Shown here piece after piece: positions 26,093-31,878 of a stretch of DNA of 64,000 nucleotides (position 1 is its first letter; every line of letters begins with the position of its first letter). Under the pieces are notes generated by a model, which saw nothing but the letters and a program-made list of their open reading frames with translations, ran no database searches and was not told where the DNA came from. Source of the DNA: Glaciecola amylolytica (GTDB taxonomy: Bacteria > Bacteroidota > Bacteroidia > Flavobacteriales_D > Crocinitomicaceae); contig CP034120.1 in NCBI GenBank assembly GCA_003856375.1, positions 1,302,001 to 1,366,000 on the forward strand, in the 5' to 3' direction. A program made the translations under genes and the position numbers.

Positions 26093-26590
26093 CTACTTGA
26101 ACAAGTTTAAAATTCTTCCGAAAAAAACATGTTCATCTGCTTTCATCAATGTGCTCGAGAGAGAATCCAGACGAGTCACCAGACGTTCGATATTTTCGAT
26201 CGTTGCAACAAAGGAAATAGACTCGTAGGATTGTTCTACTTTTTTCAATTCTGCCAAATGCTGTTGAAGCGGTTCCAATTCTCTTCTTTTGCGTTCTTTG
26301 ACGATGCGCTTTGCAACCTCCCACATATCTTTTTCCGCGCGAAAGTATTCCTTTCGATCTCCGGGAATACTTTCTTTGTAGATCAAATTCCAGTTTGTCA
26401 GTTCACGGATATTCATGTTCGCATTTCCGCGGGAAATGGAAAGTTTCTCCATGATTTCTTCTGTGCAGAGAGGATTATCGCTTACAATCAGCAAAGCGTG
26501 AACCTGAGCCATGGAACGATTGATTCCCCATTGGGTTCCGAAGTTTCCCCATGTTTGAATAAATTGCTGTTTGGCTTGTTCTAATTCCAT
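26093..26590 (-). CDS. GbsR/MarR family transcriptional regulator
   Basis: 165 aa. It starts MELEQAKQQFIQTWGNFGTQWGINRS, as GbsR-type MarR relatives do. It has a winged helix-turn-helix (SDNPLCTEEIMEKLSISRGNANMNIRELTNWNLIYKESIPGDRKEYFRAE, residues ~37-88) and a C-terminal helical dimerisation region. It heads an operon with the DCC and epimerase genes. A TATATTTG -7 box ends 4 bases before the ATG and a perfect inverted repeat lies where the -33 box would be, so autorepression is likely (inference). The inducing signal is unknown. Confidence 0.88.
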   Translation of the reverse strand: MELEQAKQQFIQTWGNFGTQWGINRSMAQVHALLIVSDNPLCTEEIMEKLSISRGNANMNIRELTNWNLIYKESIPGDRKEYFRAEKDMWEVAKRIVKERKRRELEPLQQHLAELKKVEQSYESISFVATIENIERLVTRLDSLSSTLMKADEHVFFGRILNLFK

Positions 26591-26636: not shown

Positions 26637-27617
26637 TTAATTCCGTAAAATATTCAAGGTTTGGGATTTACCGTTTTGAGAAACGACCAAATGATACAAT
26701 CCGTGCGCCAAATGTGCCAATGAAATGGATGTTTGGTCGAAGTGAGAAATGTGCTGAATCAATCTGCCATCCGTAGAATAAAGACTTAAATCCGCATCGC
26801 CTTTTAGGATAATCTGAACTTGATCTGTTGTCGGATTTGGGGATGCAGATACATTCAATGCCTGCAGTTCGTTTAATCCCAATGTTGCGTTAATAACTCC
26901 GATTGCTTCCAGATCAAATCCTCCCGATTCAAATGGAGTAGGGAAAGGGTCGTTGATTTTTGTTCCGTATTGATCCGTGGTGTAATGCGTTCCGGAAATA
27001 GCTCCGATTGCATCAATGATTCGAACGAATTGCACGGCATTCTTATTCAGATCCGGATGATTCGGAAGATCACTCAAATCGAATGGAGTTCCGAATCCTG
27101 CGCGGTATTTTCCAGCCAGATTATCGAGCATCCGGCAATCTGAAAAAGATCCGTTTGTCATTTGAGTTGTTAAAGGAACTTCCGAAGTGGATGGAAAACG
27201 GAAGAAATGAATTCCGTCCGAACTTACTTCCACATGTGCCAATTCAATGTAATTGTCCGCGAAACCGTTTTCGAAAACCGCAAAATCGTATCCCGGACCG
27301 TCCATAATGAACTGATCGAAAGAAAGTGTTGCAACCCCGCTGTCGCCCAGAGAAACCACATCGGTTGTACTTCCTGTAGCCGGACCAAAGGCCTGATTCA
27401 AAGTTCCGAAACTCGCTTTGTTTGTTCCGCTTGCTTCAGCGGTTGTGTCTGAAATATCGATGAAACCTCTCGTAATGGTTCCGCCTGTTGCCCACGAAAC
27501 GAAACAAGAACTGTCTTTTTTGATCGCATTGGTATTGGGATTTCCCGGAACCGGATGAAAGCTTTGAGCGTTTGAAAATGCGGGGATAAATACTAAAAGG
27601 GAAATGAGCTTATTCAT
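26637..27617 (-). CDS. T9SS type A-tailed cell-surface protein of the B12 locus
   Basis: 326 aa with a short signal peptide (MNKLISLLVFIPAFSNAQ). The central part (residues ~60-235) has GDSGVATLSFDQFIMDGPGYDFAVFENGF and AHVEVSSDGIHFFRFPS, a pattern of surface-protein domains found near TonB receptors. The C-terminal ~70 residues form a type A sorting tail (ASPNPTTDQVQIILKGD, LSLYSTDGRLIQ, LAHGLYHLVVS). It overlaps the propeller-lipoprotein gene by 8 bases and is the last of four genes behind a cobalamin riboswitch. A corrinoid-binding or docking role is inferred from that context only. Confidence 0.8.
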   Translation of the reverse strand: MNKLISLLVFIPAFSNAQSFHPVPGNPNTNAIKKDSSCFVSWATGGTITRGFIDISDTTAEASGTNKASFGTLNQAFGPATGSTTDVVSLGDSGVATLSFDQFIMDGPGYDFAVFENGFADNYIELAHVEVSSDGIHFFRFPSTSEVPLTTQMTNGSFSDCRMLDNLAGKYRAGFGTPFDLSDLPNHPDLNKNAVQFVRIIDAIGAISGTHYTTDQYGTKINDPFPTPFESGGFDLEAIGVINATLGLNELQALNVSASPNPTTDQVQIILKGDADLSLYSTDGRLIQHISHFDQTSISLAHLAHGLYHLVVSQNGKSQTLNILRN

Positions 27618-28668
27618 AAATCAAAATTTTACAAGGGTTTAACCCAACATTATAACTTGTTTCAAAAGTGCCGGTGTTCGAGAATACATGAACCTGACCT
27701 GTGACAGTGTAATTCTTGGCATCCATACAATAGATTTTATTGGTAATGGAAGAGTAGTAAATTCCATAAAGTGTTTGAATTCCGCTGGTGGAAATGTATG
27801 CCGGATTGACAATTGTTTCCGTACTCGGGTCGAACAAAGCAATTTCATTGTCTCCGGAACTGAAATCGTGGTAAGAAACCAGAAATCTATTATTGAACGG
27901 CGAAATACCGCTTGCATCAAAAGGAAACGATTGAACGACAGAATGTGTATTGGGATTGATCCGGTGCATGCGTGATGGAATGGAAGCATAATCGCCTCTG
28001 GTAATCACATAGACTTCTCCGCCTGGATCAGTTTGAACAGAACCGGGATTTTTTCCTACAGTGATCCGCGTAATTTCCTGCTGACTTCCCAGATCAATAA
28101 CCGAAACCGTGCTGTCTACATTCGGGAAATTTAGTCCGCCGGAGTTTGCTACAAACAATTTTCCGTTGCTGATGGCCAATCCTTCCGGGTTTGCGCCAAC
28201 CGGAATCCGATTCGTAATCGTTAAAGAAGCTGTGTCAAGCACATCAACATATCCGTCGTAACAGCTGATATATGCCTTCGATCCGGAAAATGTAATGTAT
28301 CGCGGTTGTTTGGGAGTTCCGTTGGCAATCATCGAAATCTGGGAGATGCTGTTTCCGGTTGAAGCATCTAAAATTTCAACCGTACTGGAAACATTGACAA
28401 TGATATAGATTTTTCCTCCGTATCGCTTCATGTCGTTTCCGGTGTCGCCCAGCGAACGATTGGTTTTCTGTTCGAAAAAATCGGAAGTATAGGAACTTGC
28501 CGAAAAATCGAACCAGCCGAGTGTGGCATTATTTTGCTGAAAAAGACCTTCGTTCAAGACCAGCATTCCATGGCTGAGTACTTGCGGAGCATCCGGTTCT
28601 TTCGTTTTTTTCTTTTTACAGGCAACAGTGAAAAGAACCAACAGAATCAAAAAGAATTTATAGCGCAT
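27610..28668 (-). CDS. Beta-propeller lipoprotein, BtuG-like
   Basis: 352 aa. Lipoprotein signal ending LFTVAC (Cys17) followed by KKKKTKEPDAP. Six to seven YVTN/YncE-type repeats follow, for example VEILDASTGNSISQI, VDVLDTASLTITNRIPVGANPEGLAI, VSVIDLGSQQEITRITVGKNPGSV, IALFDPSTETIVNP. In Bacteroides, BtuG is a surface beta-propeller lipoprotein that captures corrinoids for the BtuB receptor. Here the gene follows the TonB receptor (11-base overlap) in a riboswitch-controlled operon, so the same job is likely. The lysine-rich stretch after Cys17 is unlike the acidic surface-export signal of known Bacteroidota lipoproteins. Confidence 0.82.
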   Translation of the reverse strand: MRYKFFLILLVLFTVACKKKKTKEPDAPQVLSHGMLVLNEGLFQQNNATLGWFDFSASSYTSDFFEQKTNRSLGDTGNDMKRYGGKIYIIVNVSSTVEILDASTGNSISQISMIANGTPKQPRYITFSGSKAYISCYDGYVDVLDTASLTITNRIPVGANPEGLAISNGKLFVANSGGLNFPNVDSTVSVIDLGSQQEITRITVGKNPGSVQTDPGGEVYVITRGDYASIPSRMHRINPNTHSVVQSFPFDASGISPFNNRFLVSYHDFSSGDNEIALFDPSTETIVNPAYISTSGIQTLYGIYYSSITNKIYCMDAKNYTVTGQVHVFSNTGTFETSYNVGLNPCKILIYE

Positions 28669-30592
28669 ATTGAAGTCTTACATTAAAGTGAATACCCGGC
28701 ATTACAAAATAATTAATGTAACTGTATTGTTTATTGGTAATGTTGTTCAGTGAAAAACGTAAAGTTAGTTCGTTATTCTTTATCAGATGAGAATAAGAAG
28801 CTCCGAAATCGACCAGCAGATAAGCGTCAAGCAGATTGGAGGGAATATTTTGATTCAATGCATAGCGTTCTCCCAAATAGGAAGTCAACATAAAGAAGGA
28901 GATTTTTTTCCAGGAATAATCTAATTCCACACTTCCGGAATGAAGCGGAGAATAGCTTAAGATATGCCGATAGGTCGAACTGTTCGGATCGCTGATATCT
29001 TGTGTGTATTGAAACGTATAATTGACGCGCGCGCCCAATGTGTGATTGCGGATTTTCTTTTGGATCAATTCCGTGAATTCAAGTCCGGCAGCATCAGATT
29101 TTCCGATGTTCTGAATGCTCCAGATAAATAGGTTTTTAGTGGGGATAGCAAGAATCTTATCGTAAACGTAAGAATAGAAAGGTTGGATCATGGTTTGTGA
29201 AAACCCTTTTTTGAAAGGAAGCGTGAGTTCATAGCGAAGCGAAGCAATATGGGCTTTCTCCGTGCGAAGTTTCGTGTTTCCGATCTGTTGGTAGTAAAGT
29301 TCGCTGAAAGTTGGCTGTCTGCAGGTATATCTGTAGACCAGACTCAGCTTGTTTTTCTTCCCGAGATCAAAGCTCCAGGAAAGAGCCGGAAGTAAATTCC
29401 ATTGGCTTTTCAGCACCGTATCGCGCTTTTCAAAAATTCCCTGAGCACCAATTTGCAAGAGAATTCTCCCGACTTTTTTCCATTCCAGGCCGAAGACACT
29501 TTCAGAGGTGTTTCGATATGGATTTCCGGAAAGTGATTTCCCGGACAGTTCTTCTGAAATGAGCGAGCTTCCAAGTAAAATTCCCAGATTTTCTGTAATG
29601 GAATAGGAAGCCTGCGATTGAAAATCAAGTTGATTGGAATAAAACCGCTGATCGAGGTATCCGAGTGAATTCAGATAACTGGAATCGAGGTATTGGAGAT
29701 TGTTTTTCTGATAGTTGACTGAAGAGAAAACATCCCATCTGTTCTTTTTGAAATGATGATTCAGAGCAGCATTCAGACCATATCCGTTCAGATATTGTGC
29801 TGCATTGCTGTTGTAAAAAATCACTGCTCCGGCAAGTTCTTTTTGGTATTCGTTTCCGGATAAACGCAATTGAAATTGATGATTTTGGTTTGGAGAAAAC
29901 TGCACGGAAGCTGTTCCGAAATATTCCAGCAAACCGTTGTTTTTTCTTCGTTCTTCAATGGTATTGTTTCCGTTGAGGTAGGAATAGGAATAATTTCCGC
30001 CGTAAGATCGAATTTTTCCCGTTAAAGTTCCTGCCCACTTTTTTGCTCTCTTTTGAAGCATTAAATAACCTTCGTACTGGTCGAAAGAACCTAATTGCGC
30101 TCCTAAAATGATCTTTCGGGGATTAACGCCCGAATAAGAGTGAACGGATTCAACATTTACAACCACTCCGGCCAGTTTGGCGTGAATGGGAATTTGTGTG
30201 CGGGTAGGAGAAAGGGTAATCAATTCCAGGCGTTCAATAAAATCAACGGGAAAAGCACTTAGATCTGCCTGACCGCTCTGAGTGGTTGAAACAGAACTGA
30301 AATCCTGAACCAATGCTGTATGACCGGCGCCTAAACTTCGGAAACTAACGGTTTTCAAGCCGCCAACATCTCCGTAATTCTTTATTTGCAATCCGGGAAA
30401 TAAACTCAGGATCTGCCCCAGGTCATTTGCCAGTTTGTTTTGAATCCGATCCTTATTGAGTTCGATTTGAATACTGTTGTCCTTTTCATTTCGCGGGGAA
30501 ATGACAACTTCTTCAATAGGCTTAACCTCCTGCCCGAATACCGGACAGGAGATTGAAACCAAAATGGATAATATGGATAAGCGGAAAACCAA
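28658..30592 (-). CDS. btuB: TonB-dependent receptor, predicted corrinoid transporter (BtuB-like)
   Basis: 644 aa, BtuB-sized and without an N-terminal carboxypeptidase-like extension. Signal peptide MVFRLSILSILVSISCPVFG, a TonB-box-like IEEVVISP, plug domain (residues ~45-150: NDLGQILSLFPGLQIKNYG, VSFRSLGAGHTALVQDF, VDFIERLELIT) and a 22-strand-type barrel ending in an aromatic-rich C-terminus (FNVRLQYAL). The preceding gene's TAA is followed directly by TTG, which must be the start because the same frame is closed upstream and no ATG is near. The cobalamin riboswitch upstream points to vitamin B12 or its analogues as substrate. Confidence 0.88.
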   Translation of the reverse strand: MVFRLSILSILVSISCPVFGQEVKPIEEVVISPRNEKDNSIQIELNKDRIQNKLANDLGQILSLFPGLQIKNYGDVGGLKTVSFRSLGAGHTALVQDFSSVSTTQSGQADLSAFPVDFIERLELITLSPTRTQIPIHAKLAGVVVNVESVHSYSGVNPRKIILGAQLGSFDQYEGYLMLQKRAKKWAGTLTGKIRSYGGNYSYSYLNGNNTIEERRKNNGLLEYFGTASVQFSPNQNHQFQLRLSGNEYQKELAGAVIFYNSNAAQYLNGYGLNAALNHHFKKNRWDVFSSVNYQKNNLQYLDSSYLNSLGYLDQRFYSNQLDFQSQASYSITENLGILLGSSLISEELSGKSLSGNPYRNTSESVFGLEWKKVGRILLQIGAQGIFEKRDTVLKSQWNLLPALSWSFDLGKKNKLSLVYRYTCRQPTFSELYYQQIGNTKLRTEKAHIASLRYELTLPFKKGFSQTMIQPFYSYVYDKILAIPTKNLFIWSIQNIGKSDAAGLEFTELIQKKIRNHTLGARVNYTFQYTQDISDPNSSTYRHILSYSPLHSGSVELDYSWKKISFFMLTSYLGERYALNQNIPSNLLDAYLLVDFGASYSHLIKNNELTLRFSLNNITNKQYSYINYFVMPGIHFNVRLQYAL

Positions 30593-31561
30593 TTAGATTT
30601 TGCTGATGCGTGTTCTTGCAGTTCCTTTTGAACTTGTTGTTTCAACAAAGTAAGTTCCTGCATTCACGTGGTTCAGATTAATTTCCTGAGTTCCGTTTGT
30701 TGCTTGCTCCAGAATTAATTCACCTGTAAGGCTGAAAACTTTGATTTGTCCTGCTTCTGATTGAACTGTCAAATGACCTGTTGTAGGATTCGGGTAAATC
30801 TCCTGAGTTGAAACGCTCAATTCATTGATGGAAGCCGTTCCGTATGTCAGGTTGTCTAAAGCAAAATAAGCCGGAGTATTCATTCCGAATTGACCTGCAT
30901 CAGAAGAAGCTAATTCGAACTCTAAGAATTTAACTTCTCCAAGCGGAGTTAAATCTACTGTTTCCCAGGTGTTAACGATGTAATCTTGTGCATTGTTTGC
31001 AAAACGGTAATCTGCCAGATAGAATTCAACAGTATCCGTTGTATTGCTTTGAGCATCTTTTCCGATGATGTATAAGCGGAACCAATCTGCTCCGTTTGTT
31101 CCGTCCGGATCTCCGGCTGCATTATTGGAAGAACCGAATACTTTCCCATAAGCGTCTCCGTTCAGCATAGACAAAGCTGCATAGGTTGAGTTGGTGATTT
31201 TGATGCTGCTCAATACTTTTTCAGTTCCGAAATTAATGCTTCCGTTATTGAACACAGCGTAATTAGCACTTCCGTTTGCGCCGTTTCCGGTATAAGCGGA
31301 ATAATCATTTGTATTCCCCGGAGTTGCTACATCAGTAGAGTTGGAGTAAACGAATCCGTTCCAGAAATGATACTGTGTGTTGTACGTGTTTTCGAAGAAA
31401 ACGCCTCTTGAAGTAAATCCGCCTGCCATGTCCGAACCTAACCATGCGGTGTCAGATCCCGGAGGAGTCAGATCTTCGAAATCTACTACGGTTTGTGCTT
31501 GTGTGTATTGGATGCAGAATACACTAACTGCGAGTAACATTTTTTTCATTGCTTTTAGCAT
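30593..31561 (-). CDS. DUF4465 protein with T9SS type A tail, first gene of B12 operon
   Basis: 322 aa. The signal peptide ends ...SVFCIQYTQAQ, and the ATG at 31549 (MKKM) is an alternative to the ATG at 31561. The mature part matches DUF4465: VDFEDLTPPGSDTAWLGSD, GGFTSRGVFFENTY, YWNGF-like YHFWNGFVYSNSTD, WFRLYIIGKDA, VEFYLADYRF, WETVDLTPLGEVKFLEFELASSD, YFALDNLTY. The C-terminus is a type A sorting tail (IYPNPTTGHLTVQSEAG, KVFSLTGELILEQ, NAGTYFVETT). DUF4465 genes often sit beside BtuB-type receptors. It follows the riboswitch by ~140 bases and abuts the receptor gene. Confidence 0.85.
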   Translation of the reverse strand: MLKAMKKMLLAVSVFCIQYTQAQTVVDFEDLTPPGSDTAWLGSDMAGGFTSRGVFFENTYNTQYHFWNGFVYSNSTDVATPGNTNDYSAYTGNGANGSANYAVFNNGSINFGTEKVLSSIKITNSTYAALSMLNGDAYGKVFGSSNNAAGDPDGTNGADWFRLYIIGKDAQSNTTDTVEFYLADYRFANNAQDYIVNTWETVDLTPLGEVKFLEFELASSDAGQFGMNTPAYFALDNLTYGTASINELSVSTQEIYPNPTTGHLTVQSEAGQIKVFSLTGELILEQATNGTQEINLNHVNAGTYFVETTSSKGTARTRISKI

Positions 31562-31698
31562 TTAAAAATTAAACAATTGAAGACAGAGTCTTCGTTCTAA
31601 GTAAGCAAATGAAAAAATCAGAGAATAAGAACAAACTGAAAGATTGTACTTCCATATTCGAACTTGACTTTAATCTGAAGTCTTCATTCATTATGTTC

Positions 31699-31866
31699 AA
31701 GGCAGGTATTCTGACTTCCCTCCGGTAACTTCTCCTTCCCATCAGTCGGTCGACTGGCAGTGGAACAATGAAGTCCGTTTGATAAGGGTTACAGCTGCAG
31801 ATACAGTTTCGGATTCACACCGAATTCCCTATTATCGATTGTATTGCTACAAGCGAACCTAAAACG
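31699..31866 (-). ncRNA. Cobalamin (B12) riboswitch
   Basis: Read on the reverse strand, the element runs from AGGTTCGC (near 31860), through AATAGGGAAT and GGTGTGAATCC (31811-31821), CTGTATCTGCAGCTGTAAC (the family's CTGTNCCCGCAACTGTAA block), CCACTGCCAG and GGGAAGG, to GAAGTCAGAATACCTGCC ending at 31701. Order and spacing are those of the AdoCbl-type family. It lies in the leader of the four-gene operon and should lower its expression when cobalamin is plentiful. Confidence 0.93.
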
Positions 31867-31870
31867 GTGG

Positions 31871-31878
31871 CAAAGGTA
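31871..31878 (-). promoter_or_regulatory. -7 element of the B12 operon
   Basis: Reverse-strand TACCTTTG fits TAnnTTTG. Transcription would begin near 31865, just at the 5' edge of the riboswitch. No exact TTG -33 box is seen. Confidence 0.5.

Follow-up and report, generated by a model that had tools for sequence, protein, structure and literature searches.

A cobalamin-riboswitch operon in Glaciecola amylolytica encoding type IX-tailed candidate B12-capture proteins

We analyzed a 64,000-nucleotide stretch of the Glaciecola amylolytica genome (GenBank assembly GCA_003856375.1, contig CP034120.1, positions 1,302,001 to 1,366,000; hereafter "the window"), whose minus strand holds four genes behind a cobalamin riboswitch. 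We judge these genes quite likely to form a B12-starvation operon in which a standard BtuB/BtuG gate is combined with a capture layer routed through the type IX secretion system (T9SS). Considered across the class Bacteroidia, the arrangement is real and widespread, a T9SS counterpart of the capture layer for B12 known from Bacteroides. The computations made here cover gene order, riboswitch, protein families, tails, translocon gene and conservation.

The riboswitch and its four genes

An earlier note on this DNA had described a cobalamin riboswitch ahead of four abutting or overlapping genes, encoding two T9SS-tailed proteins, a BtuB-sized receptor and a propeller lipoprotein. The RF00174 match and the gene coordinates bear out that layout, and family profiles, structure matches and a lipobox bear out the four identities. 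The features are:

31684-31877 (-), cobalamin riboswitch aptamer, RF00174 (85 bits, gathering threshold 31.5, E 1.6e-19; the whole-genome scan gave the same site)
30593-31561 (-), BtuJ-type DUF4465 candidate B12-capture protein with a T9SS type A tail, 322 amino acids (profiles, structure match, MNTPAYF)
30848-31375 (-), DUF4465 domain (178.8 bits)
30599-30799 (-), T9SS type A sorting domain of the DUF4465 protein (52.1 bits)
28658-30592 (-), BtuB-type TonB-dependent receptor, 644 amino acids, TTG start (Plug domain, BtuB1 match)
27610-28668 (-), BtuG-type propeller lipoprotein (DUF5074), 352 amino acids (DUF5074, BtuG1 match, lipobox)
26637-27617 (-), family V protein, predicted T9SS type A cargo and proposed BtuH-like B12-capture protein, 326 amino acids
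26889-27560 (-), conserved V core domain (316.5 bits)
26646-26843 (-), T9SS type A sorting domain of the V protein (38.3 bits with our own profile; TIGR04183 37.2)

Between the riboswitch and the first gene lie 122 bases, the first two genes abut (30593/30592), and the next two junctions overlap by 11 and 8 bases. Because a genome-wide scan found only four RF00174 sites in the 4.6 Mb single-contig genome, the linkage of riboswitch and operon is not a matter of chance. A weak terminator-like hairpin at 31579-31593 (-), between riboswitch and first gene, may be an expression platform; the region has nine such sites against 6.2 expected, so the hairpin may also be chance. We considered the MarR gene at 26093-26590 as a fifth operon gene; a 46-base gap and higher conservation favor a separate gene without settling the point. 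The same gene adjoins V in L008-L011 (94-97% identity; four of the seven loci searched).

The gate itself is conventional. The receptor has a Plug domain and matches TIGR01779 (TonB-B12) at 74.6 bits, below the equivalog cut-off of 599.7, and its nearest solved structure by sequence is Bacteroides thetaiotaomicron (B. theta) BtuB1 (8blw_A, E 4.8e-56). The propeller matches DUF5074 at 65.1 bits, lies nearest to BtuG1 (8blw_B, E 6.9e-67) and begins with MRYKFFLILLVLFTVAC, a lipobox (TVAC) as judged by eye; it thus has every mark of a BtuG, i.e., DUF5074 propeller, lipobox and btuB neighbor. In Bacteroides, BtuG acts as the lid of BtuB in BtuB-BtuG complexes (PMC10404256), and for homologues of this propeller B12 binding is published.

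The DUF4465 protein matches Pfam PF14717 at 177.4 bits (cut-off 25, E 4.5e-52), and its nearest solved structure by sequence is 9fct (E 4.9e-22), i.e., BtuJ1 (PMC13398666). Its HI loop retains NTPAY, the motif that bears the B12-binding Tyr (MNTPAYF, aligned to MNTPSYF of 9fct), so that it shares the domain, the motif and the B12-operon neighbors of the DUF4465/IPR027828 family described in that paper (9fct, 9hmu, 9i2l). Lipoprotein targeting like that of BtuJ1 and BtuJ2 is lacking: the protein has a plain signal peptide (by eye) and ends in a Por_Secre_tail/TIGR04183 match (47.9 bits, cut-off 23), and by its sequence it is a T9SS-tailed member of the family rather than a BtuJ lipoprotein. The V protein likewise has a plain signal peptide (by eye) and, above cut-off, matches nothing except the T9SS tail (TIGR04183, 37.2 bits, cut-off 23). 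In both proteins TIGR04183 scores above cut-off at the extreme C-terminus. One operon is therefore predicted to encode a lipid-anchored channel lid together with capture proteins that are T9SS cargo. The tail bears on a protein's exit route from the cell and is silent on contact with BtuB; the earlier note's proposal that such cargo would be direct parts of the importer goes further than the tails do.

Conservation and export route across Bacteroidia

To place the operon we used a class sample of 295 genomes drawn evenly from Bacteroidia, in which a profile search found DUF4465 in 81 (10 second-domain matches in tandem proteins were merged into their first before counting). At 74 of 87 DUF4465 places RF00174 lay upstream on the same strand within 8 kb, mostly at distances of about 300 or about 2,200 bases; 0.159 such places are expected by chance, and a chance origin of the linkage was rejected. 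Surroundings were read for 86 of these places (the 87th being the window itself), and our own profile found DUF4465 in 84 of the loci: the stretch read held BtuB in 67, BtuG in 60 and V in 48, with BtuB or BtuG in 71. Thirteen loci had none of the three nearby, 11 of them with a riboswitch of their own. A 2104-amino-acid protein directly 3' of a cobalamin riboswitch (L121:1364-7678) carries its DUF4465 domain near the C-terminus.

T9SS tails dominate among these proteins. Our own tail profile found one in 72 of 80 DUF4465 open reading frames (ORFs) with an intact 3' end, and the curated TIGR04183 in 71 of 79. Three of the eight untailed ORFs (L137, L181, L192) have a lipobox and stop right after the domain, two (L119, L121, one genome) have a C-terminus of another type, and three (L187, L188, L190) end in a stretch of about 80 residues outside our profile's reach. 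Within the window's genus DUF4465 occurs in 14/14 genomes, as a single copy in 13 and as two contig-edge pieces in G298, and the tail is present on all 13 complete ORFs and on the C-terminal piece. Eight DUF4465 proteins only distantly related to each other, including a Fluviicola taffensis protein, have been demonstrated to bind B12 (PMC13398666); extrapolating from the window's genus, this B12-binding protein would be a tailed orthologue.

The export machinery follows the same lines. The window genome encodes the SprA translocon (G000:C1:3775923-3783095, 2383 bits; the search covered SprA alone), as do 78 of the 80 DUF4465 genomes searched (the remaining one of the 81, G021, was left out, its DUF4465 match falling below cut-off). 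In both SprA-less genomes (G073, G032) the only DUF4465 has a lipobox and ends right after the domain, and a named control, Bacteroides ihuae, has DUF4465 and no SprA match. One SprA match (G086:C31:2804-9811) contains three in-frame TGA codons.

BtuG takes the other route. In the class sample it has a lipobox in 63 of 78 complete ORFs and a tail in one, while among ORFs complete at both ends in that sample 70 of 78 DUF4465 and 81 of 89 V proteins are tailed; the lipobox counts are rough, since our simple pattern also fires in four tailed DUF4465 and four tailed V ORFs. Over both locus sets (the class sample and the named-genome scan described below), 11 of 133 BtuG ORFs (130 distinct) are tailed, 10 of the 11 in named-genome loci and two fused to V. 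T9SS-tailed BtuG-type propellers of 425-436 amino acids lie near V in L013, L016, L021, L023, L024, L033, L050 and L230, and some tailed-BtuG loci hold a second, lipoprotein BtuG alongside.

Family V was followed in both sets. The named-genome scan confirmed 230 relatives, and we retained the 80 best-matching loci; the five nearest among these 80 of 230 are four Fluviicola loci (64-75% identity) and one from another Flavobacteriales member (71%), by which the window genome would belong to Fluviicola. TIGR04183 is found on 80 of 82 aligned V members (nearest relatives, window included). Strong V matches occur in 90 of the 295 class-sample genomes (91 places; matches weaker than E 6e-73 excluded), 103 of 295 having a match at E 0.001, and 82 of the 90 V ORFs carry a T9SS tail. 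The two sets share five V loci (L031 = L139, L036 = L154, L063 = L220, L065 = L126, L022 = L238), and each count refers to a single set except where noted. Alignment A5 omits L122 and L198 (5' end cut), and alignment A2 omits the L011 core.

A riboswitch lies upstream of 64 of the 91 V places (51/71 and 13/20 in two batches), and BtuB, BtuG or DUF4465 stands beside V in 65 of 90 loci (stretch read). V and DUF4465 co-occur in 70 of the 295 genomes, with 24.7 expected from their separate counts of 90 and 81, a figure uncorrected for kinship. Lone V genes number 25; nine have a riboswitch of their own and one (L223) has a below-threshold match, the single hit of a sub-threshold scan with permissive filters at seven lone-V loci (adenosylcobalamin type, 42.2 bits, cut-off 50). 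Small genes stand between a cobalamin riboswitch and V at three loci: a 4HBT thioesterase directly 3' of the riboswitch (L206:7716-8105) and, before lone V genes, DUF5522 / cysteine-rich CWC proteins (L225:7720-8106, L214:7721-8080). The earlier note had held that its link between type IX cargo and B12 would fail if the tailed proteins occurred mostly away from B12 riboswitches or receptors. They occur mostly beside them (74/87 and 71/84 for DUF4465, 64/91 and 65/90 for V), and riboswitch linkage, tails and receptor neighborhood together support the interpretation.

Family V, BtuH and a second predicted type IX cargo

What V does is suggested by its partners and by its fold. It is fused to the BtuG propeller in L020 and L032, and to DUF4465 at two distinct loci (L138, and a single contig sampled both as L031 and as L139). 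Of 82 members, 16 are joined to DUF4430 at E 0.001, in part with scores under Pfam's cut-off; DUF4430 is the C-terminal domain of vertebrate transcobalamins (PMC4350170). BtuH has fusion partners like those of V (BtuG-BtuH in L137, BtuH-DUF4465 in L119). Twelve loci encode long V proteins of 476-964 amino acids (L029, L045, L049, L055, L057, L062, L066, L068, L075, L079, L085, L087), several with DUF4430 and some with large N-terminal parts that belong to no family.

By sequence, the single V protein matched nothing in the PDB under E 0.1, and the V profile matched T9SS tails plus, weakly, 4r9n at E 0.11. The AlphaFold2 model of the core (26874-27563, pLDDT 95) retrieved discoidin-type domains in Foldseek, and BtuH2 (7biz) came fourth (TM-score 0.39, probability 1.00, E 3.7e-3). 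V and the C-terminal B12-binding domain of BtuH (7biz) have in common the motif SLGxxGxxxLxFxxxIxN..DF...N.F, but homology between the two is tentative: direct comparison by hhalign is marginal, and going by way of group A4 gives probabilities of 99 and 70. This group (L245-L248, L250) is a sister of V with the same FENAF motif, and the stretch read around its genes held neither B12 genes nor a riboswitch. In BtuH2, Asn399 and Phe401 touch the phosphate and the lower ligand of B12 (PMC8941943); at the FENxF motif of V the position matching Asn399 is Asn in 81 of 81 members, and that of Phe401 is Phe in 56 of 81, Leu in 21, a gap in three and Val in one. The 100-residue offset between chain and paper numbering was counted by hand and fits Gln333, Asn399, Phe401, Trp577 and Leu578. 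The other B12 contacts of BtuH2 (Gln333, His476, Tyr510, Trp511, Trp577) were left unmatched, as no alignment with V is reliable over these positions.

Relative to the B. theta operons V occupies the place of BtuH, although the absence of BtuH could be chance (0.16, from five strong-BtuH genomes). We tried mutual exclusion as proof of replacement: none of the five strong-BtuH genomes has V and a profile search matched BtuH in none of the 90 V genomes, which, at a chance of about 0.16, is consistent with replacement and not proof of it. V as a homologue of BtuL found no support either: the V profile missed, at E 0.01, the 728-amino-acid lipobox protein in BtuL position of a Bacteroides-like locus (L181:9415-11601). 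On balance we lean toward V being a BtuH-like capture protein. It is not filed as BtuH, because A4 has the same motif and shows no B12 context.

The window genome appears to hold a second type IX cargo of this regulon, apart from the operon. Its other three cobalamin riboswitches precede a B12-independent methionine synthase, a 4HBT thioesterase with VIT1, and a T9SS-tailed 648-amino-acid protein with HYR-like domains, the last behind the strongest riboswitch of the genome (110.9 bits):

L253:4771-6717 (-) = G000:C1:2721770-2723716, 648-amino-acid T9SS-tailed protein

The first 320 residues behind its signal peptide have no Pfam or PDB sequence match; they model as a propeller (pLDDT 87), and the 15 best Foldseek matches of that model are all BtuG-type (best E 4.4e-18), comprising B12-bound B. 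theta entries, BtuBG complexes and one B. uniformis relative (3dsm). Among 80 genomes of the family we found 10 strong members, query included and two weak matches (E 4e-4) excluded, each of them preceded by a B12 box at a distance of 136-209 bases. A full RF00174 match was obtained for two (G000 and G162, the latter in a scan of more than 40 genomes with stricter filters), the other eight resting on the B12 box. Sequence and model thus mark the 648-amino-acid protein as a predicted independent T9SS cargo of the B12 regulon. The gene after it (L253:3927-4670) has no Pfam match and by eye resembles DUF4198-type metal proteins; the 4HBT thioesterase gene (L251:3060-3446) lies directly 3' of its riboswitch and 5' of the VIT1 gene.

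Competing readings and what the operon may mean

In the mechanism we propose, low corrinoid would release the riboswitch and all four genes would be made. BtuB would enter the outer membrane, and BtuG would be lipidated and form its lid as in Bacteroides, whereas the DUF4465 and V proteins would pass by Sec into the periplasm and then, guided by their C-terminal tails, through the SprA translocon across the outer membrane. With tails trimmed they would be left on the surface or just outside, where they would bind scarce corrinoid tightly (for V, by its presumed likeness to BtuH) and hand it over to BtuG and thence to BtuB. Bacteroides-like genomes without T9SS would carry the same capture domains as surface lipoproteins. 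The B. theta Btu operons (BtuB/G/H/J/K/L; PMC12751083, PMC10404256, PMC8941943) likewise combine riboswitch, BtuB, BtuG lipoprotein, DUF4465 and a further capture protein, and a relay from BtuJ to BtuH to BtuBG has been proposed there (PMC12751083). As described in these papers, the B. theta capture proteins are lipoproteins, BtuJ going to vesicles, whereas those of the window carry T9SS tails; if V is BtuH-like, the operon would hold the stations of that relay in T9SS form.

Several observations weigh against this reading. No riboswitch was found at 27 of the 91 V places or, within 8 kb upstream, at 13 of the 87 DUF4465 places, some of either kind at contig ends and some not; 16 of the 25 lone V genes have neither a riboswitch over threshold nor BtuB, BtuG or DUF4465 in the stretch read, and 15 show no B12 sign there at all. 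The fold match to BtuH2 is weak and stands behind factor VIII C2 domains (the top three), direct comparison of V with the BtuH domain profile is marginal (hhalign probability 31, E 5e-4 over 38 columns), and A4 keeps the motif, yet shows no B12 context in the five loci read. NCBIfam's LIC_13355 lipoprotein family (NF033170) recognizes 13 of the 82 V proteins with E-values no higher than 0.001; its members are lipoproteins by name, we know of no B12 link for them, and the V protein of the window does not match at E 0.001. One genome, G251, has SprA yet a lipoprotein DUF4465. Finally, PMC13398666 states that lipoproteins make up more than 70% of the DUF4465 family, the remainder being periplasmic; our sample contradicts this, within the scope of Bacteroidia.

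One alternative keeps the capture proteins and lets them go: the tailed proteins would be released rather than anchored, diffusible carriers that fetch corrinoid in the medium and return to BtuBG much as siderophores do, a role also proposed for BtuJ-bearing vesicles in B. theta. Export strips type A tails, and part of the known T9SS cargo is soluble, although the best known fate, in Porphyromonas, is attachment to lipopolysaccharide. BtuG, which is bound to stay on BtuB, keeps a lipid anchor and the capture proteins do not, and DUF4465 capture proteins act on released vesicles in B. theta (PMC12751083); against this, a free carrier would be shared with competitors, and sequence gives no distinction between anchored and released type A cargo. 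We regard release as rather unlikely. We put at about the same low level the reading in which DUF4465 alone captures B12 and V is a structural or helper protein of the regulon (adhesin, scaffold or vesicle factor) that binds no corrinoid. Its appeal lies in the discoidin-like fold, which also serves glycan- and lipid-binding modules such as those heading the Foldseek list, in A4 and the lone V genes, and in BtuL, a lipoprotein of a B. theta B12-uptake operon for which no cobalamin binding was seen and which aids vesicle release (PMC12751083). It fits poorly with the fusion of V to three different B12-capture or transcobalamin-type domains, with the way these partners mirror those of BtuH, with the invariant Asn matching the phosphate-binding residue of BtuH2, and with the failure of the V profile to reach the gene in BtuL position.

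The tails could also mean little, if T9SS is the default surface-export tag of these bacteria and tailed B12 proteins are what one would expect. The window genome has at least 150 T9SS tails. IPR026444, a C-terminal extracellular sorting domain, is presumably the T9SS sorting domain. It is reported on 229 of 824 DUF4465 proteins, with a lipoprotein signal on 275 and never both (PMC12751083). The lipobox that BtuG has in most of its ORFs speaks against a blanket default, and neither a T9SS route for B12 capture nor family V was found described in the literature searched; we consider a mere default doubtful, if slightly less so than the two preceding alternatives. Among the matches listed, and apart from the 229/824 count, no T9SS cargo was described in B12 uptake (subscription papers and preprints lay outside the scope), and the terms T9SS and type IX are absent from the main texts of PMC13398666 and PMC12751083. 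For Flavobacterium psychrophilum, PMC9723704 places a cobalamin riboswitch before a TonB receptor and reports T9SS genes separately. HBP35 of Porphyromonas gingivalis (PMC2907840), a C-terminal-domain protein with a suggested Por (type IX) route, binds hemin and sustains growth under hemin scarcity; it differs in handling heme rather than B12 and in being thioredoxin-type, and PMC2907840 names no riboswitch or adjacent receptor gene for it, but it sets a precedent for this kind of protein in the uptake of a tetrapyrrole. Within this literature we found no description of family V or of the T9SS-versus-lipoprotein rule, whereas the DUF4465 half of the finding is already in print as a count. The earlier note's claim that neither family had been described in this role therefore holds for V and falls for DUF4465, for which B12 binding has been published as well (PMC13398666).

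Returning to the type IX-exported capture layer that we favor, a broader version, which we hold rather unlikely, can be offered: that the whole layer of T9SS-bearing Bacteroidia (DUF4465, V, DUF4430 fusions and cryptic BtuG-like propellers) consists of type IX secreted B12 carriers relaying to lipid-anchored BtuG, that gut Bacteroides, having lost T9SS, secondarily replaced this layer with lipoproteins and vesicles, and that V is a new B12-binding class. If the operon works as proposed, many Bacteroidia would use another export route for B12 capture than the surface lipoproteins of gut Bacteroides, T9SS would gain a direct role in vitamin scavenging, and V, a common family without a Pfam entry, would acquire a testable function. 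T9SS mutants of flavobacteria that carry such an operon should then scavenge low B12 poorly.

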